Of a stretch of DNA of 64,000 nucleotides, positions 4,567-56,710 are shown in pieces. Both the position numbers and the translations under genes were made by a program. The DNA is taken from positions 1,488,001 through 1,552,000 of the forward strand of contig NZ_CP073355.1 of assembly GCF_023525255.1 (NCBI RefSeq), written 5' to 3'. The notes under the pieces were generated by a model. The model saw only the letters and a program-made list of their open reading frames with translations. It had not been told where the DNA came from and did not search any database. Source of the stretch: Thermospira aquatica (GTDB taxonomy: Bacteria; Spirochaetota; Brevinematia; Brevinematales; Thermospiraceae). How positions within the stretch are numbered: position 1 is the stretch's first letter; each line of letters opens with the position of its first letter.

Positions 4567-4750
4567 GGGAAACTCCTTATGATGAGAGGATTAACAAGGG
4601 TATGTATTAGTGTAATGGAAGAGGGGAGAAAAATCAAATAGGAAGAGAGTTGTTAGAGGTGCTGGTTTTCAGTTGTGTATATCGGGAAGCAGACTGCAAC
4701 ATAGTAAGAGCAAATCTCAAAGCACGTGAGAGTGTGAGAGGGGATATAAA

Positions 4751-4766
4751 GGTTAAACGTTTAACC
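4751..4766. promoter_or_regulatory. Perfect 16-bp palindrome, operator-like
   Basis: GGTTAAACGTTTAACC reads identically on both strands. The AAACGTTT core resembles LacI-family operators, but no LacI-type gene is in the window. It lies 185 bases upstream of ppa and next to the repeat array. Function is inferred from symmetry only. Confidence 0.45.
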
Positions 4767-4783
4767 TGGAGTTTTCGACATAT

Positions 4784-5214
4784 GCTATTACCTTTTTGCA
4801 GTATTATCGCGATGTTTATCACTGTGAAAAAGTAATAGCTGGAATTTTTCCCACTGTGACAAGGTAACAGCAAGAGTTTTTTCCTGCAACAAGGTAATAG
4901 CAAGAACCTTTCCCTTGCGACAAGGTAATATCTTTCTCCCTCTTCTGACTGCGACACGGTAATAGTCCCCATGGGAGGCACACTTTGACAAGGGAAGAGC
5001 GAAAGATTTCTTTTCCCCCTGCAACAAGGTAATAGCTTGTGAGTTTTACGCCTTCACTGCAACAGGGAAATAGCCTTCAGGCCCCACACATTCACTGCAA
5101 AATGGTAATAGCTGACGTTTTTCGTACTGCAACAAGGGAATAGCCCAAATGGGAGGGACACCGCGACAAGGTAATAGCAAGAGGACAGTTTTTACACTGC
5201 AACAAGGGAAGAGC
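4784..5214 (+). repeat. Array of 12 direct plus 1 inverted degenerate 18-bp repeats
   Basis: The unit is close to CTGCAACAAGGTAATAGC. Direct copies begin at 4822, 4854, 4884, 4915, 4949, 4983, 5019, 5057, 5095, 5127, 5161 and 5197, giving a pitch of 30-38 bases; one inverted copy is at 4784-4801. Copies differ from each other at one to five positions, mostly in the middle (GGTAATAGC, GGGAATAGC, GGGAAGAGC). Spacers are 12-20 bases and unrelated. The pitch is not a multiple of three, so it is not coding. Repeats this short and variable with such short spacers do not fit a CRISPR array. Confidence 0.85.
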
Positions 5215-5423: not shown

Positions 5424-5427
5424 ATTA

Positions 5428-5449
5428 TTGGACGGACTGGTCCGTCCAA
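5428..5449. promoter_or_regulatory. TetR-type operator, autoregulatory
   Basis: An inverted repeat with perfect 10-base arms, TTGGACGGAC and GTCCGTCCAA, separated by TG. It starts four bases downstream of the -10 box and lies before the tetR-family start, the usual position for repression by the encoded TetR protein. Confidence 0.85.
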
Positions 5450-5467
5450 AAACAAAGGAGTATAAGT

Positions 5468-6121
5468 ATGCTTAACGCACTTTTAGAAAATCGTTTAACA
5501 GAGAGAGAAAAGCAGATTATAGAAGTGGCAAGAAAGAGTTTTCTTACCTATGGGTATGCTGGCACCAATGTGGATCAGATTGCTCAGGAAGTAGGGATAG
5601 GCAAAGGCACCGTCTACCGTCATTTCAAAAGCAAAGCATATCTTTTTATCGCCGTTGTTCTTTACACCTATCAGGAGATGATTGCTTATTTTCTTCCTAT
5701 TCCCCAGATTTCTGATCCAGCGGAGGCTTTTGTTCATTATTTGCACACCCTTATAGAACTCAATCGGAAGCTCAAGCCTTTCTTTGCCTTACTTAATCCC
5801 ATGGAGTTTGGGAGAGAGTTTCAGCATGATTGTGGGGATAATCCCGAGGTAAAAAACCTCCTAGAACATTTTCAGCAACAGAGACAACAGGGAATCCAGC
5901 TTCTGGTCAGTCTTATTGAACGTCTTCAGAAGGCGGGGGCTCTTCGTAACGATATAGCACCACAAGAACTTTCGCGGATGATGTTTGTTTTGATCAATAA
6001 TTATTTTCGTAAGGAGCCTGGTGTTGTTGAGGAGGATTATGATAACGAAAAAGCTTTACTTGATTTTATTTTTAGTGGACTCAATTACAAAGGAAAAGTA
6101 TCAAAGGAGGATAGATCATGA
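5468..6121 (+). CDS. TetR/AcrR family transcriptional regulator
   Basis: 217 residues. The N-terminal helix-turn-helix is typical of the family: KQIIEVARKSFLTYGYAGTN, then VDQIAQEVGIGKGTVYRHFKSK (about residues 17-60). The remaining 150 residues are the variable ligand-binding domain. AAAGGAG precedes the ATG. It is the first gene of an operon with a TolC-like protein, a membrane-fusion lipoprotein and an RND pump, and its stop codon overlaps the next start. It most likely represses this operon through the palindrome at 5428-5449 and is relieved by a pump substrate; the ligand cannot be read from sequence. Confidence 0.92.
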   Translation: MLNALLENRLTEREKQIIEVARKSFLTYGYAGTNVDQIAQEVGIGKGTVYRHFKSKAYLFIAVVLYTYQEMIAYFLPIPQISDPAEAFVHYLHTLIELNRKLKPFFALLNPMEFGREFQHDCGDNPEVKNLLEHFQQQRQQGIQLLVSLIERLQKAGALRNDIAPQELSRMMFVLINNYFRKEPGVVEEDYDNEKALLDFIFSGLNYKGKVSKEDRS

Positions 6122-7509
6122 AACGCTTTTTAATAGGGGTTTTTGGATTGATGGTCACGTGGGGCATGTCGCTTTCCCCAGATCTTGAGGTGATACTGAC
6201 CACCGCCCTTCAAAACAATCCTACCCTGCGACAGTATCGACTTGATGCAGACATAGCGGAAGCTCAGTACCAGCAGGCCTGGGCGGATTTCTGGCTCCCG
6301 GATGTATCTGCGGGTGCTAGTTTTACCTACCTTGATCCTGATACGGTAGAGAGGGGAAAAATGAGTGTGCCTGAGTACACCATGACAAACCTGAATCTTC
6401 CCGTTATCGGCGGCGCTGGGGGTTATGTTCCTGTACCAACGATGGTTCCCAGTGGTTTTACCACGAATCAGACGGTGTTTGCGGATAACTACGGGATCCA
6501 GTTTCAGGTAGCTAAACCACTCTTCCTTGGCTTCAGACTGGCAAATGCTCTCAAGATTCGCGAACTTAACCTCAAGCTGGCTCGTCAAAAGTTTCAGGAT
6601 CAGCAACAGTCGATCAAAACCAGTGTGATCCAGTCATACTACAATATTCTTGTGCTCAAGGAAAACATTCGCCTCTCCAGGCAGTTAAGCGATGCGCTTC
6701 GAAAACGCTATGAATTTATGCAGGCGAATTACAGAGCTGGTCTTGTTTCCGATTATGATGTTCTTAAAATGGAGGTTCAGTACAAGAATACCCTCCCTTC
6801 TCTTCAAAAGCTGGAAACCACCTATCAGACAGTTCTTCAGCAGTTTTTCCAGCTGGTAGGGACCAACCTGGAACCGTCAGGACAGATTATGGATGCTACG
6901 AATCTCATCCTCTCTCGGACAAACGAAGCAGAGATTCTGGAATATGTGATGAGCAACAATATTAACCTTGTGCAGATTCGTGTAAGTAGAGAGATCCAGG
7001 AGTATACGTATCGTCTTCAGCAGGCAGACAGACTTCCGACCATCAATAGCTTTTTCACTCTCAAGTACGATTACAGGCTGGAAAAAAGCGGTGAAACGGA
7101 GAGAAAATGGATTCCCTCATGGACGATAGGGGTATCGGTAAGTGTCCCTCTTGATGAGTGGCTCCCCTTCTCTAAGAATTCAGCGCTTCTTAAAGAAACC
7201 AGACTCTCTCAGGAGAAAACAGACCTCGCGATAAAAACCCTGGAGGATCAGCTGAGTCTTCAGGTGAAAAGTCTCCTTGCCCAGCTTGCGGATCAAAAGC
7301 AGACTATAGAAGCACAGAGTCTCAATATGCGTCAGGCTCAAAGGGGGCTTGAGATGGCCAATGACCGTTATCGCCAGGGCGTGGTTTCCTCTCTCGATGT
7401 CACCGATGCAGAAGCCTCGTATAGCCAGGCACAGGTTAACTATCTTCAGAGTATTTATGATTATGTGAATACCGTGGTAAAACTCAAACAGTTACTTTAT
7501 GAATTGTAA
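6118..7509 (+). CDS. TolC-family outer-membrane efflux protein
   Basis: 463 residues with an N-terminal signal segment (MKRFLIGVFGLMVTWGMS). Two outer-membrane efflux repeats are visible: conserved helices in the first half (LDADIAEAQYQQAWADFWLP, YYNILVLKENIRLSRQL) and the second (MRQAQRGLEMANDRYRQGVV, SLDVTDAEASYSQAQVNYLQ). It would form the trimeric outer-membrane channel for the RND pump encoded two genes downstream. The start overlaps the tetR-family stop (ATGA) and has AAGGAGG just upstream. Confidence 0.92.
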   Translation: MKRFLIGVFGLMVTWGMSLSPDLEVILTTALQNNPTLRQYRLDADIAEAQYQQAWADFWLPDVSAGASFTYLDPDTVERGKMSVPEYTMTNLNLPVIGGAGGYVPVPTMVPSGFTTNQTVFADNYGIQFQVAKPLFLGFRLANALKIRELNLKLARQKFQDQQQSIKTSVIQSYYNILVLKENIRLSRQLSDALRKRYEFMQANYRAGLVSDYDVLKMEVQYKNTLPSLQKLETTYQTVLQQFFQLVGTNLEPSGQIMDATNLILSRTNEAEILEYVMSNNINLVQIRVSREIQEYTYRLQQADRLPTINSFFTLKYDYRLEKSGETERKWIPSWTIGVSVSVPLDEWLPFSKNSALLKETRLSQEKTDLAIKTLEDQLSLQVKSLLAQLADQKQTIEAQSLNMRQAQRGLEMANDRYRQGVVSSLDVTDAEASYSQAQVNYLQSIYDYVNTVVKLKQLLYEL

Positions 7510-7522
7510 TAAGGAGGATATT

Positions 7523-8434
7523 ATGAACCAGAAGAGAAGTTTTTTCTTCCAAATATTTGTGGTGATGAGTACGATACTCTTGATGGCGGGGCTTTTGAGT
7601 GGTTGTTTTTCTCGTGGCAAAAAAGCAAGAGAGGAAGAAGCCATCACTGTACTGATTCAAAAAGCCAAGGTACAATCTTTCCAGCAGTTTATTGATCTCA
7701 ATGGCCAGATTGCAGGGAGGAATGAGGTCAAGGTTTATGCCGATGTTTCCGGGAAAATTGCTCAGATCCTTGTAAAAGAAGGGAGTTATGTTTCCAAAGG
7801 ATCAGTGATAGCGTACATTGATAGAGCCCAGGTAGGTGCGGATTATGCCCTTGCTCCTGTCAAGGCGCCGATTAGTGGATATGTGACATCCGTGTCTGTC
7901 GTTTTGGGGCAGATGATTAGTCCTGGAACAGTACCTGTTGCCTCTATTGGATCTTTAACAGAGATGGATGTGATTATCTCGCTGCCCGAACGATTTGTTC
8001 GTGATGTAGAGATTGGACAAACAGTCTATCTTAAGGTGGCAGCGTATCCCGATGAACGTTTTACAGCCACAATTTATAGAAAAGATTTGGCTGTTGATCC
8101 CACCAGCCGTACTCTTACAGTTCGTGCTCAGATCCAGGATCCTCGTGGCAAACTTCTCTCCGGGATGTTTGCTGATGTTTCGATCCTTGTGCGTGAGTCG
8201 AGTAAAAGCATTGTGATTCCCTCAAGTGCTCTTGTAGAACTGGAAAACGGCAAGCAGGCAGTTTATGTTAACCAGGATAATGTGGCAAAAATTCGCCCTG
8301 TTTCGGTGGCTTTTGGATACAAAGACAAAGTGGCTATTCAGCAGGGGTTAAACCCTGGTGAAGAGGTAATTATTTATGGGAAAGAATTTCTCAAAGATGG
8401 AACACCCATCTATCCCGTCGAGGAAGAGAATTAG
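7523..8434 (+). CDS. RND efflux periplasmic adaptor lipoprotein
   Basis: 303 residues from the ATG at 7523, which follows AAGGAGG; an upstream in-frame ATG would overlap the TolC gene. It has an N-terminal lipoprotein signal with lipobox LLSGC. The membrane-fusion-protein core follows: a lipoyl/barrel-sandwich half-motif (GKIAQILVKEGSYVSKGSVIA), the return strand APISGYVTSVSVVLGQMI, a beta-barrel domain and a C-terminal segment ending in GLNPGEEVIIYG. The hairpin between the barrel-sandwich halves is very short, as in spirochaetal BesA-like adaptors. It links the inner-membrane RND pump to the TolC-like channel. Confidence 0.92.
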   Translation: MNQKRSFFFQIFVVMSTILLMAGLLSGCFSRGKKAREEEAITVLIQKAKVQSFQQFIDLNGQIAGRNEVKVYADVSGKIAQILVKEGSYVSKGSVIAYIDRAQVGADYALAPVKAPISGYVTSVSVVLGQMISPGTVPVASIGSLTEMDVIISLPERFVRDVEIGQTVYLKVAAYPDERFTATIYRKDLAVDPTSRTLTVRAQIQDPRGKLLSGMFADVSILVRESSKSIVIPSSALVELENGKQAVYVNQDNVAKIRPVSVAFGYKDKVAIQQGLNPGEEVIIYGKEFLKDGTPIYPVEEEN

Positions 8435-8443
8435 GAGGAGTCT

Positions 8444-11400
8444 ATGTCCCTTCCAAAAATAGCGGTTGAAAGACCGGTGACCATGCTTATGGGGCTGGCA
8501 GCCCTGGTTATTCTGGGAATTGTTTCTCTTACCAAACTACCTGTAGATCTTACTCCCAATCTTGAGTTTCCTGCACTCTCGGTAGTGACAACGTATTCCC
8601 AGGCATCTCCTCAAGAGGTGGAAAAATCTATTACTCGCGTGATTGAAAGCGCAGTATCAGCCGTCAATGATATTGATTCGATTGAGTCAACCTCCTCCGA
8701 GGGTCGTTCTGTGGTGACAATTTCCTTTAAATGGGGAACAGATCTTGATGCTCGTGCAAGTGATGTGCGTGAAAAGCTGGATTTTGCCAAGAGGCTTCTC
8801 CCAAGTGATGCCTCAAGTCCCTCGGTATTTAAGTTTTCTACATCCTTGATACCAACGATGATTATTAGTATTACCGGTTCCGAGGATCAGGAGTATCTCT
8901 ACAACCTTGCTGAAAACCAGATCAAACCCAAGATTGAACAAACTCCCGGAGTAGCCAATGTGTCCCTGAATGGTGGAATCAAAAAGATTGTAAGTGTGGA
9001 GGTATACAGAAACCGACTTGAGGCTTATGGTCTGAGTATTGATAATCTTGCCAACGTGCTTGCCCTTGAAAACCAGAACCAAGCAGGTGGATATACCTAC
9101 GAGGGGGTTTACAAGTATCTTCTGCGCATGCAGGGTGAGTTCAAAACACTCGAGGATATTGAAAATGTGGTTGTGACAGTCAAAAATGGTATTCCCATAC
9201 GTCTCAAAGAGATCGCGAGAGTGAGATATGCTAACAGTACCGACCAGGGTATTGCTCGTGTGAACGGCAAACCGGCGGTGAGTCTTACCATATATAAACA
9301 AGCGGATAGAAATACTGTTCAGGTTTCAAAGGATATTCATAAAACCTTAAAAGAACTCTCTCTTTCTTTACCGGAGACGATAAAAATCGATACCATTCTT
9401 GACACAGCCGAGGCGGTGAATAATTCGATCGCCAATGTTCGCAATGCTGCCCTTCAAGGAGGATTACTTGCTGTTGTTATTCTCTTGATGTTTCTCTGGA
9501 ATTTCAGGACGGTATTGATTATTGCTATTTCTATTCCAACTTCGATTATTGCCACGTTTATCACAATGTACTTCTTTGGGGTTTCACTCAATATCGTCTC
9601 TCTTGGTGGATTGGCACTTGGTGTAGGAATGATGGTGGATAGTTCGATTGTCGTTCTTGAAAACATCTTTTACTACCGGCAGAAGGGATATGGGCGATTC
9701 AAGGCAGCCGTGCTTGCTACGGAGGAGGTAATGTTGCCTATTATTGCTTCTACCTTGACGACAGTAGCGGTTTTTCTTCCTATTGTGTTTGTCGAAGGTT
9801 TTACCGCTCAAATCTTTCGCGATCTTGCTCTTACAGTGAGTATTTCCTTACTTGTTTCATTGGTAGTGGCTATTACGGTGGTTCCCATGCTTGGAAGCCA
9901 GATGGTCCATATCGAAGAAAACTGCTATCTCCGCAAACTTGAGGATGCCTTTAATCGTTTGTGGAATGCGCTGGTAGGCTGGTATGAGAGAAGACTTGCC
10001 TGGGCTCTTGCGCACAAGAGAAAGGCACTGTTTGGTATTTTTGGAACGTTTATAACCTTAGGACTTGTGATTCTTATCTTCATTGGTAAAGAGGGTATGC
10101 CACAAACAGACCAGGGTCAGTTTTCTATTCGTGCCCAGTTTCCTGTAGGAACGAGACGGGAGTATGTGGATACTATTACCAAGGAGATGGAAAAAGTGCT
10201 TCTTGAAGCCCTTGGCAAGAATCTCAAAGCCATGCAGGTACAGATTGGTGCAGGAGGGGTTATGGCTTTTGGCGGAGAAAACGAATACACCGTAAACTTT
10301 CGTATCTCGCTTATTTCTCCCAAAAAGCGATCAAAAGGGATTAATAAAATTATTGAAGAGTCTCGAATAGCGCTCAAACCCTTTCCTGCAAAGATTACTG
10401 TTCAAAATAGTGGGGGATTTATGATGGGGGGCGGTGCAGCACTCACTGTTGAGGTGCAGGGGGATGATCTTGAACAGAGTGAGAAGCTTGTTGACCGTAT
10501 CATCAAACTGGCGGAAGAAGTTCCAGAAATTCGAAATGTTTCAGCAAATAGAAGTGACTCTCTGCCTGAAATTGTTCTACGTATTAACCGTGTAGCTGCT
10601 TCCAAACTTGGTTTTAATTCGTTTACGCTCGCACAGATGATCAAGACAGCCTTTGGTGGGAAGACAGCCACGCGTTTAGCAGCAGAAGGCGGAGATATGG
10701 ATGTTATTGTACAGCTTGAAGAACAATCTCGATCGTCGGTGGATGATATTTATAGTCTTCAGGTACCTTCTCCTGTAGGTCGTCTTGTGCCTCTTGCCTC
10801 TTTGCTTGATCAGTACAAAACAACGGGTCCCAAAGCCATTAATAGAAAAAATAACCGCCGAACGGTGACTATATCCATGGATTACTATGGTAAAAGCCTC
10901 AATCAAGTGATCTCCACGCTTCAAAGTCGTATCAAAAAAGAGGTTTTTGTCCCCCGTGGATTTTCGATTTCCTATGGAGGGTCATTTAAGGATATGCAGG
11001 AATCTTTTCGACAGCTGACGCTGGCCCTTCTTCTTGCTATATTCTTAGTGTATGCGGTGATGGCTTCTCAGTTTGAGTCGCTATGGGCTCCTTTCGTGAT
11101 TTTGTTTACGGTGCCGTTTGGATTTGTAGGGTCATTACTCTTATTGTTTATCATGGGGAAAACGCTCAATACCATCTCTTTTCTCGGATTTGTGATCCTG
11201 GTGGGAATTGTGGTGAATAATGGGATTATTCTCATCGATCATATGAATAATCAGATAAAATCAGGCAAAAAACCCGATGAGGCTGCGCTTGAAAGTGGTG
11301 TTCGACGTATACGGCCTATTATGATGACGACCCTTACCACAATCCTGGGACTTATTCCTCTTGCCCTTGGTATAGGCGAAGGTTCTGAACTTTATATTCC

Positions 11401-11518
11401 TCTTGCTGTGTCTATTCTTGGAGGATTGGCACTTTCTACGGTGATTACCCTTGTGGTGATCCCCACGGTGTACGCAGCATTACGAAATAGGATTCCTATC
11501 AAGATTCATGAAGACTGA
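8444..11518 (+). CDS. RND efflux transporter, inner-membrane permease
   Basis: 1024 residues, full length for the AcrB/BesB class. Twelve membrane segments are arranged in two halves with large periplasmic loops after TM1 and TM7. The TM4 proton-relay motif reads GVGMMVDSSIVVLENIF, so only the first aspartate of the AcrB DD pair is present, as in several single-Asp RND pumps. The duplicated TM10 region (GFVILVGIVVNNGIILIDHM) is intact. AGGAGG precedes the start. Substrates cannot be assigned; the adjacent TetR suggests an inducible drug or toxic-compound exporter. A hairpin terminator follows the stop. Confidence 0.93.
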   Translation: MSLPKIAVERPVTMLMGLAALVILGIVSLTKLPVDLTPNLEFPALSVVTTYSQASPQEVEKSITRVIESAVSAVNDIDSIESTSSEGRSVVTISFKWGTDLDARASDVREKLDFAKRLLPSDASSPSVFKFSTSLIPTMIISITGSEDQEYLYNLAENQIKPKIEQTPGVANVSLNGGIKKIVSVEVYRNRLEAYGLSIDNLANVLALENQNQAGGYTYEGVYKYLLRMQGEFKTLEDIENVVVTVKNGIPIRLKEIARVRYANSTDQGIARVNGKPAVSLTIYKQADRNTVQVSKDIHKTLKELSLSLPETIKIDTILDTAEAVNNSIANVRNAALQGGLLAVVILLMFLWNFRTVLIIAISIPTSIIATFITMYFFGVSLNIVSLGGLALGVGMMVDSSIVVLENIFYYRQKGYGRFKAAVLATEEVMLPIIASTLTTVAVFLPIVFVEGFTAQIFRDLALTVSISLLVSLVVAITVVPMLGSQMVHIEENCYLRKLEDAFNRLWNALVGWYERRLAWALAHKRKALFGIFGTFITLGLVILIFIGKEGMPQTDQGQFSIRAQFPVGTRREYVDTITKEMEKVLLEALGKNLKAMQVQIGAGGVMAFGGENEYTVNFRISLISPKKRSKGINKIIEESRIALKPFPAKITVQNSGGFMMGGGAALTVEVQGDDLEQSEKLVDRIIKLAEEVPEIRNVSANRSDSLPEIVLRINRVAASKLGFNSFTLAQMIKTAFGGKTATRLAAEGGDMDVIVQLEEQSRSSVDDIYSLQVPSPVGRLVPLASLLDQYKTTGPKAINRKNNRRTVTISMDYYGKSLNQVISTLQSRIKKEVFVPRGFSISYGGSFKDMQESFRQLTLALLLAIFLVYAVMASQFESLWAPFVILFTVPFGFVGSLLLLFIMGKTLNTISFLGFVILVGIVVNNGIILIDHMNNQIKSGKKPDEAALESGVRRIRPIMMTTLTTILGLIPLALGIGEGSELYIPLAVSILGGLALSTVITLVVIPTVYAALRNRIPIKIHED

Positions 11519-32663: not shown

Positions 32664-35529
<2,866 letters not shown>

Positions 35530-56370: not shown

Positions 56371-56710
56371 ACAAACTCCTTGCTTTTGGTTAAGATTACT
56401 TTTTTATATACAGTGTAACTCTTTTTCTTAAAAAAATCAAGTAAAGCGGAAGACTGTTGTGATGAGAGCTATTACCTTATTGCAGTGATATTATGATGAA
56501 AACATTCGTAAGCAAGAGAAGATTCTTCTTTTAGGGAGGGTTTTATTGAAAAAATTGTTTATTTCTGGTTATGAAAAAAGAGAGAAACTGCATGTCTTAC
56601 AATATGTTTATGAGACCCCATGAAGGGATAAGACAGAACCTTTGTGTCAACAATACAATCTTTTTACCTTGTGTGTATCTGGAAAAAGCCTTTGAAATTT
56701 TAAGAAACCA
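56371..56710. other. Intergenic region with one stray 18-bp repeat
   Basis: No gene is supported between the divergent-facing cysS start and the radA stop. A single inverted copy of the 4784-5214 array unit, GCTATTACCTTATTGCAG, lies at 56468-56485. An open frame at 56571-56825 overlaps radA antisense and shows no family resemblance. Confidence 0.6.
56468..56485 (-). repeat. Solitary copy of the 18-bp array repeat
   Basis: Reverse complement reads CTGCAATAAGGTAATAGC, one difference from the array consensus at 4784-5214. Confidence 0.8.

Follow-up and report, generated by a model that had tools for sequence, protein, structure and literature searches.

A polar array of 18-bp half-sites in Thermospira aquatica and a putative REPtron-like system around a catalytically dead IS1595 relative

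Introduction

Most known cases in which dispersed bacterial repeats have a transposase-derived partner involve the HUH class (RAYT/REP). In such REPtrons, the gene for the HUH nuclease TnpA-REP (RAYT), mostly present in a single copy, is bordered by its own palindromic repeats, which bear a GTAG tag, are dispersed in hundreds of copies and form inverted doublets at fixed spacing (REP/iREP doublets, BIMEs, REPINs), with distinct protein classes having cognate repeat classes. Several transposase-binding sites also occur within element ends of the Tn7 or Mu type, whose transposase is active. In some REPtrons, the repeats cluster near the gene (PMC8266576; PMC3116915). Elements of the IS1595 family carry a single gene, for the transposase, and have inverted ends (PMC8101967), and the terminal inverted repeats (TIR) of IS1595-related elements start with GG and GGGGCTGT... 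(PMC8101967, PMC12561309). BrickBuilt of Porphyromonas gingivalis, in turn, is a MITE with an internal minisatellite (PMC4596501). Here we compare with these systems an array of degenerate 18-mers located in a stretch of 64,000 nucleotides of the Thermospira aquatica genome, the whole of which is referred to below as the window.

Results

According to the preliminary description of the window, 12 direct copies and one inverted copy of the 18-mer occupy positions 4784-5214, at a pitch of 30-38 and with spacers of 12-20 bases. Sequence reading and the consensus scan returned exactly this count, on the plus and the minus strand respectively, and the copy coordinates gave the same start-to-start pitch and the same spacers. 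The copies do fill this range, but the element is slightly larger: its homology to other arms in the genome begins at 4693, and it takes in a palindrome at 4751-4766 and a fourteenth copy outside the range. Its parts are listed below, the whole element as delimited by alignments to other arms, the two doublet arms by the consensus scan and the polarity analysis, and all further half-sites from 4854 onwards by the consensus scan.

4693-5214, plus strand: whole element, with operator segment, palindromic doublet and polar half-site array, gene-less
4694-4711, plus strand: half-site CTGCAACATAGTAAGAGC, corresponding to the plus half-site that, in copies with a gene, adjoins the 70-bp link to it
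4751-4766, no strand: 16-bp palindrome GGTTAAACGTTTAACC, a LacI-type operator-like site
4784-4801, minus strand: single inverted cap half-site, first arm of the doublet
4822-4839, plus strand: half-site, second arm of the doublet
4854-4871, plus strand: half-site
4884-4901, plus strand: half-site, exact consensus
4915-4932, plus strand: half-site
4949-4966, plus strand: half-site
4983-5000, plus strand: half-site
5019-5036, plus strand: half-site, exact consensus
5057-5074, plus strand: half-site
5095-5112, plus strand: half-site
5127-5144, plus strand: half-site
5161-5178, plus strand: half-site
5197-5214, plus strand: last half-site of the array

The window holds 16 motif matches with up to three mismatches against 0.14 expected, a number reached in none of 100 dinucleotide-preserving shuffles. 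Lone half-sites were also found apart from the array, at 32899-32916 (three mismatches) and 56468-56485 (one mismatch). The cap and the first plus copy of the array form a palindromic doublet at 38-bp pitch, which gave z = -3.9 when folded as single-strand DNA. The first 200-350 bp of the window arm share 84-93% identity with many other genomic arms. Elsewhere this arm flanks an IS1595-like gene, which is absent from the window copy, and judging from these alignments the window copy is a solo, gene-less arm of a gene-bearing system.

The TetR gene named in the preliminary description is real and lies 3′ of the array, at 5468-6118 (Pfam TetR_N, 5e-15). Immediately 5′ of it and separate from the array, an inverted repeat TTGGACGGAC-TG-GTCCGTCCAA at 5425-5452 is a probable TetR operator for the efflux operon that follows (6118-11518), which comprises an outer-membrane factor, a membrane-fusion protein and an RND pump.

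In the genome of the window (G000, a single contig of 2,515,453 bp), the 18-mer has 669 matches with up to three mismatches, compared with nine for the reversed control. A related form is present in the congener G002, with 142 matches at up to two mismatches, and at the same threshold the congener G001 has no match to the G000 version of the motif. In about 862 kb of sampled stretches, a weight matrix with a looser threshold placed 698 half-sites, clustered around the chromosome, and 49 arrays of at least four half-sites, linked to IS1595-like genes, were counted there. Many of these stretches were picked for containing matches, and the resulting densities are thus no unbiased estimate for the genome. 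Beyond the genus, exact scans gave only eight single stray matches in unrelated taxa among 84,980 species genomes and five strays among viral contigs, both collections possibly omitting the records of the source genome itself. A wider spread of the family was therefore rejected, the homologues found on plasmids being annotated canonical IS1595 with 26-29% identity. By these scans, the repeat family belongs to the genus; the repeat family suggested earlier is thus real, but it extends over the genus and is not limited to one species. As for the same locus in relatives, neither G001 nor G002 has an array at the orthologous position 5′ of the pyrophosphatase (PPase) gene. The preliminary description had considered a functional array unlikely if it were absent from relatives and had no other copies; the array is absent there, yet other copies abound. 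In five stretches of G002, several 54-bp doublets are centred in longer (~145 bp), partly conserved and roughly symmetrical sequences, which may represent a larger repeat family.

The dispersal of the arrays also bears on several known classes of repeats, of which REP/RAYT proper, CRISPR, plasmid-type iterons and structured RNA are together a very improbable explanation. Hairpin-forming doublets and a genome-wide palindromic family do resemble REPs, but the Y1 HUH transposase (PF01797) was detected in none of the three genomes, while five of 14 control genomes were positive, and RAYT-associated REPs were rejected. Iterons, one of the readings offered earlier and expected at an origin beside their initiator gene, find no support, as dozens of arrays are dispersed round the chromosome and tied to an IS1595-like gene rather than to a replication gene. 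CRISPR, which had been discounted from the outset, requires near-identical repeats of at least ~23 nt separated by unique spacers, and the repeats here are too short (18 nt) and too degenerate, with spacers of 12-20. Known RNA families were rejected as well, Rfam having given no match above threshold.

Many half-site clusters contain gaps of ~1.1 kb that encode a protein of 266 aa. In G000, this IS1595-transposase-like gene is found at 17 loci, 13 of them with an intact copy. Among the 14 copies checked, 13 have a plus half-site 146-148 bp 5′ of the start codon and all have a minus half-site 182-199 bp 3′ of the stop; in one intact copy (1560890), the 600 bp before the gene contain no half-site. 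The main rival explanation, ordinary insertion-sequence biology, starts from this organization. It takes the 18-mer for the TIR of an IS1595-family element, the '+90-' segments for miniature elements, and the arrays for passive debris, built by repeated insertions beside existing ends, of an active transposase that has since been lost. We consider it unlikely, although the gene unit (1123-1145 bp) is bounded by inverted, TIR-like 18-mers and so shares with IS1595 and the related Merlin transposons the arrangement of one gene between inverted repeats. Furthermore, flanking arms are shuffled among different gene copies in varied combinations whose breakpoints coincide with half-sites or lie close to them, and the homology of the window copy begins at the outer edge of its half-site, both in line with debris. 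On the other hand, the unit ends (CTGCAACAAGG... and ...CCTTGTTGCAG) lack the GG or GGGG start known from Merlin and ISApl4, an unsystematic inspection by eye of the flanks of gene units and doublets showed no 8-bp target-site duplication, and dozens of additional end-like sites lie outside the unit, unlike in IS1595 or Merlin. Similarly, the repeated, oriented and here putative binding sites at both termini of the unit recall Tn7 and Mu ends, but most sites are found outside the unit and many arrays have no gene.

The plan of the arrays is also difficult to reconcile with passive debris, which does not predict a single cap followed by a one-way run. In 50 of 57 blocks of at least four half-sites, minus copies precede plus copies, compared with 7.0 blocks expected under random strands and a maximum of 16 in 2000 random-strand draws, and nearly all such blocks consist of one inverted cap and a one-way run of direct copies. 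Pitch peaks at 30, 32, 34 and 38, the doublet pitch peaking at 38 bp in G000 and at 35-36 in G002, and no helical phasing is evident. In the doublets of G002 and G001, the outer side can equally be GCT or CTG. BrickBuilt (PMC4596501) is likewise intergenic, multi-copy and MITE-like, with a tandem array of short repeats having conserved and variable positions, but its 23-nt repeats follow each other without spacers, its ends are related to those of the IS5 family, it keeps no cognate transposase-like gene, and no polar cap has been described for it.

Passive debris would be expected to decay evenly, yet between homologous arrays the core positions of the motif differ by 2.3%, spacers by 10.3% and degenerate positions by 14.6%, i.e., changes are 4.4-fold fewer in the core than in the spacers. 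These values come from 85 pairs, 80-97% identical, drawn from 35 arrays; as the arrays are related by duplication, neither the pairs nor the polarity counts are independent. Sparing of particular positions is not expected from neutral decay or from gene conversion, and this pattern argues for sequence-specific recognition. The binding role that had previously been deduced from regularity is thus also suggested by core constraint, by strict polarity and by the co-variation of protein and repeat across species described below.

The relationship of the 266-aa protein to IS1595 is clear from PF12760 (1e-9) and from profile-profile comparison with canonical IS1595 transposases (E 1e-34, probability 99.9%), while the match to NF033547 (6e-17, 62 bits) stays under the 75-bit cut-off of that model. 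The DNA-binding zinc ribbon, the helical N-terminus and the C-terminal helices are retained and homologous to those of IS1595 and Merlin. By contrast, the core is ~50 residues shorter than in IS1595, and according to the profile-profile alignment the DDE triad is lost: the first D is replaced by V122, the second D falls in a deleted stretch, and E is replaced by S194. The triad is missing from every lineage of the family, which is a further argument against ordinary insertion-sequence biology. PF12762 matches the protein only over its last ~40 positions, and when the three genomes were searched with this profile, no DDE_Tnp_IS1595 domain proved complete, by which a hidden complete IS1595 transposase acting as helper was rejected. 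In an AlphaFold2 model (pLDDT 84), the zinc ribbon and a helical region accompany an alpha/beta core that is reduced. The PDB fold search gave no match below E 0.001, and the best weak matches, mostly to retroviral integrases, would agree with a reduced integrase-like fold rather than prove it. The family is present in five of 18 genomes of the class and carries the signature YHxGCRxH wherever the C-terminus is intact. Because dN/dS is 0.113 over 11 intact copies (mean dN 0.029, mean dS 0.256), the protein is, as estimated from these substitutions, under purifying selection even though its triad is gone.

Homologues in G002 and G001 have the same doublet just upstream of the gene. A second homologue in G001, 36% identical to the G000 protein, sits among a different repeat, TTGAGAAAAGGAGAGARC, with 36 copies (none in the control), of which ~27 lie within 50 kb of the gene, and which forms inverted pairs at a fixed pitch of 66-69. 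Such second-class pairs occur every few kb over ~50 kb round the cognate gene (G001:C29:75000-124040). In G002, a gene fragment 67% identical to the second homologue of G001 adjoins a second-class (type-2) palindrome, and a perfect 28-bp palindrome of this class is found next to a type-2 gene that is truncated and to a tRNA-like sequence (G002:C39, L192 9927-9954). Protein type and repeat type thus vary together across species, as the cognate pairs of REPtrons do.

A palindrome of LacI type, GGTKAAACSTTTMACC, is present in 32 of 58 segments between tail-facing half-sites, and in the sampled stretches 23 of 29 such palindromes fall within the 6.5% of DNA near half-sites. It is kept where the remainder of the tail-facing segment has diverged, and it recurs among half-sites in G002. 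The palindrome of the window array also lies in the promoter of a gene of the LacI family, after which comes a GH31 alpha-glucosidase gene (G000:C1:1106988), and GGTTAAACGTTTAACT, directly 5′ of the GH31 gene (G000:C1:1108118), matches the array palindrome. Such sites suggest that a LacI-family protein would bind the arrays.

These palindromes also bear on another possible explanation of the arrays, a host regulatory or chromosome-organising system, in which a fully domesticated regulator or nucleoid protein acts together with a LacI-family regulator and host selection keeps the arrays for their part in gene control or DNA architecture. The LacI-type operators within arrays of two species, the same operator upstream of the LacI and GH31 genes, the constrained motif core and the low dN/dS (0.11) are all consistent with it. 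Likewise, 14 of 36 classified arrays lie in divergent intergenic regions, which make up ~24% of gaps, but this excess is weak and based on approximate gene calls, and targeting of promoter regions was not accepted on its account. However, array positions are not conserved, as the array upstream of PPase is missing in both congeners, and 17 gene copies with genus-restricted, lineage-specific repeats fit a selfish element better. We regard a host system as quite improbable.

Discussion

We favour, with a probability of roughly 0.6, the reading that the 18-mer is the putative half-site of an IS1595-related, catalytically dead protein belonging to a REPtron-like system. As in REPtrons, a transposase-derived gene has its own palindromic doublets on its borders and dispersed elsewhere, the repeats exist in hundreds of copies and pair as inverted doublets with a fixed spacing, each protein class appears to have its cognate repeat class, and in G001 the repeats cluster near the gene. 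In contrast to REPtrons, the protein belongs to the DDE/IS1595 lineage, has lost its catalytic acids and is not an HUH nuclease, the GTAG tag is absent, the gene reaches up to 17 copies, and there are long one-way runs of half-sites with LacI-type operators inside the arrays. The system is accordingly classed neither as IS1595, in view of the missing triad and GG ends, nor as a REPtron, since it has no HUH enzyme.

Under the favoured reading, a dimer would nucleate on the palindromic doublet, and further subunits would join one-way along the direct half-sites, resulting in a polar nucleoprotein assembly. The doublet 5′ of the gene would regulate the gene itself, and some arrays would be modulated by the LacI-family sugar regulator. 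Sites and gene would spread jointly, as a selfish or domesticated system in the manner of REPtrons. Some observations weigh against this reading. The 17 gene copies, most of which share the same half-site spacing at either end, resemble an active insertion sequence; a catalytic route may have escaped notice, or the genome may have lost an active helper. In addition, the pitch shows no helical phasing, although a rigid filament might require it, and one intact gene copy has no half-site close upstream. A fuller version of this reading is more tentative and falls somewhat short of even odds. It proposes a REPtron-like system of independent DDE origin, in which the dead IS1595-derived protein maintains and spreads the polar arrays and is wired into a LacI-controlled sugar regulon.

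Conclusions

If the REPtron-like reading is true, the system would represent a separate case founded on a DDE transposase without active site, with protein-repeat pairs that could be traced across sister species. It would also raise the question of how the gene of a dead transposase reaches 17 copies under strong purifying selection. Finally, the arrays, each with a single inverted cap, would offer a compact test system for polar protein assembly.
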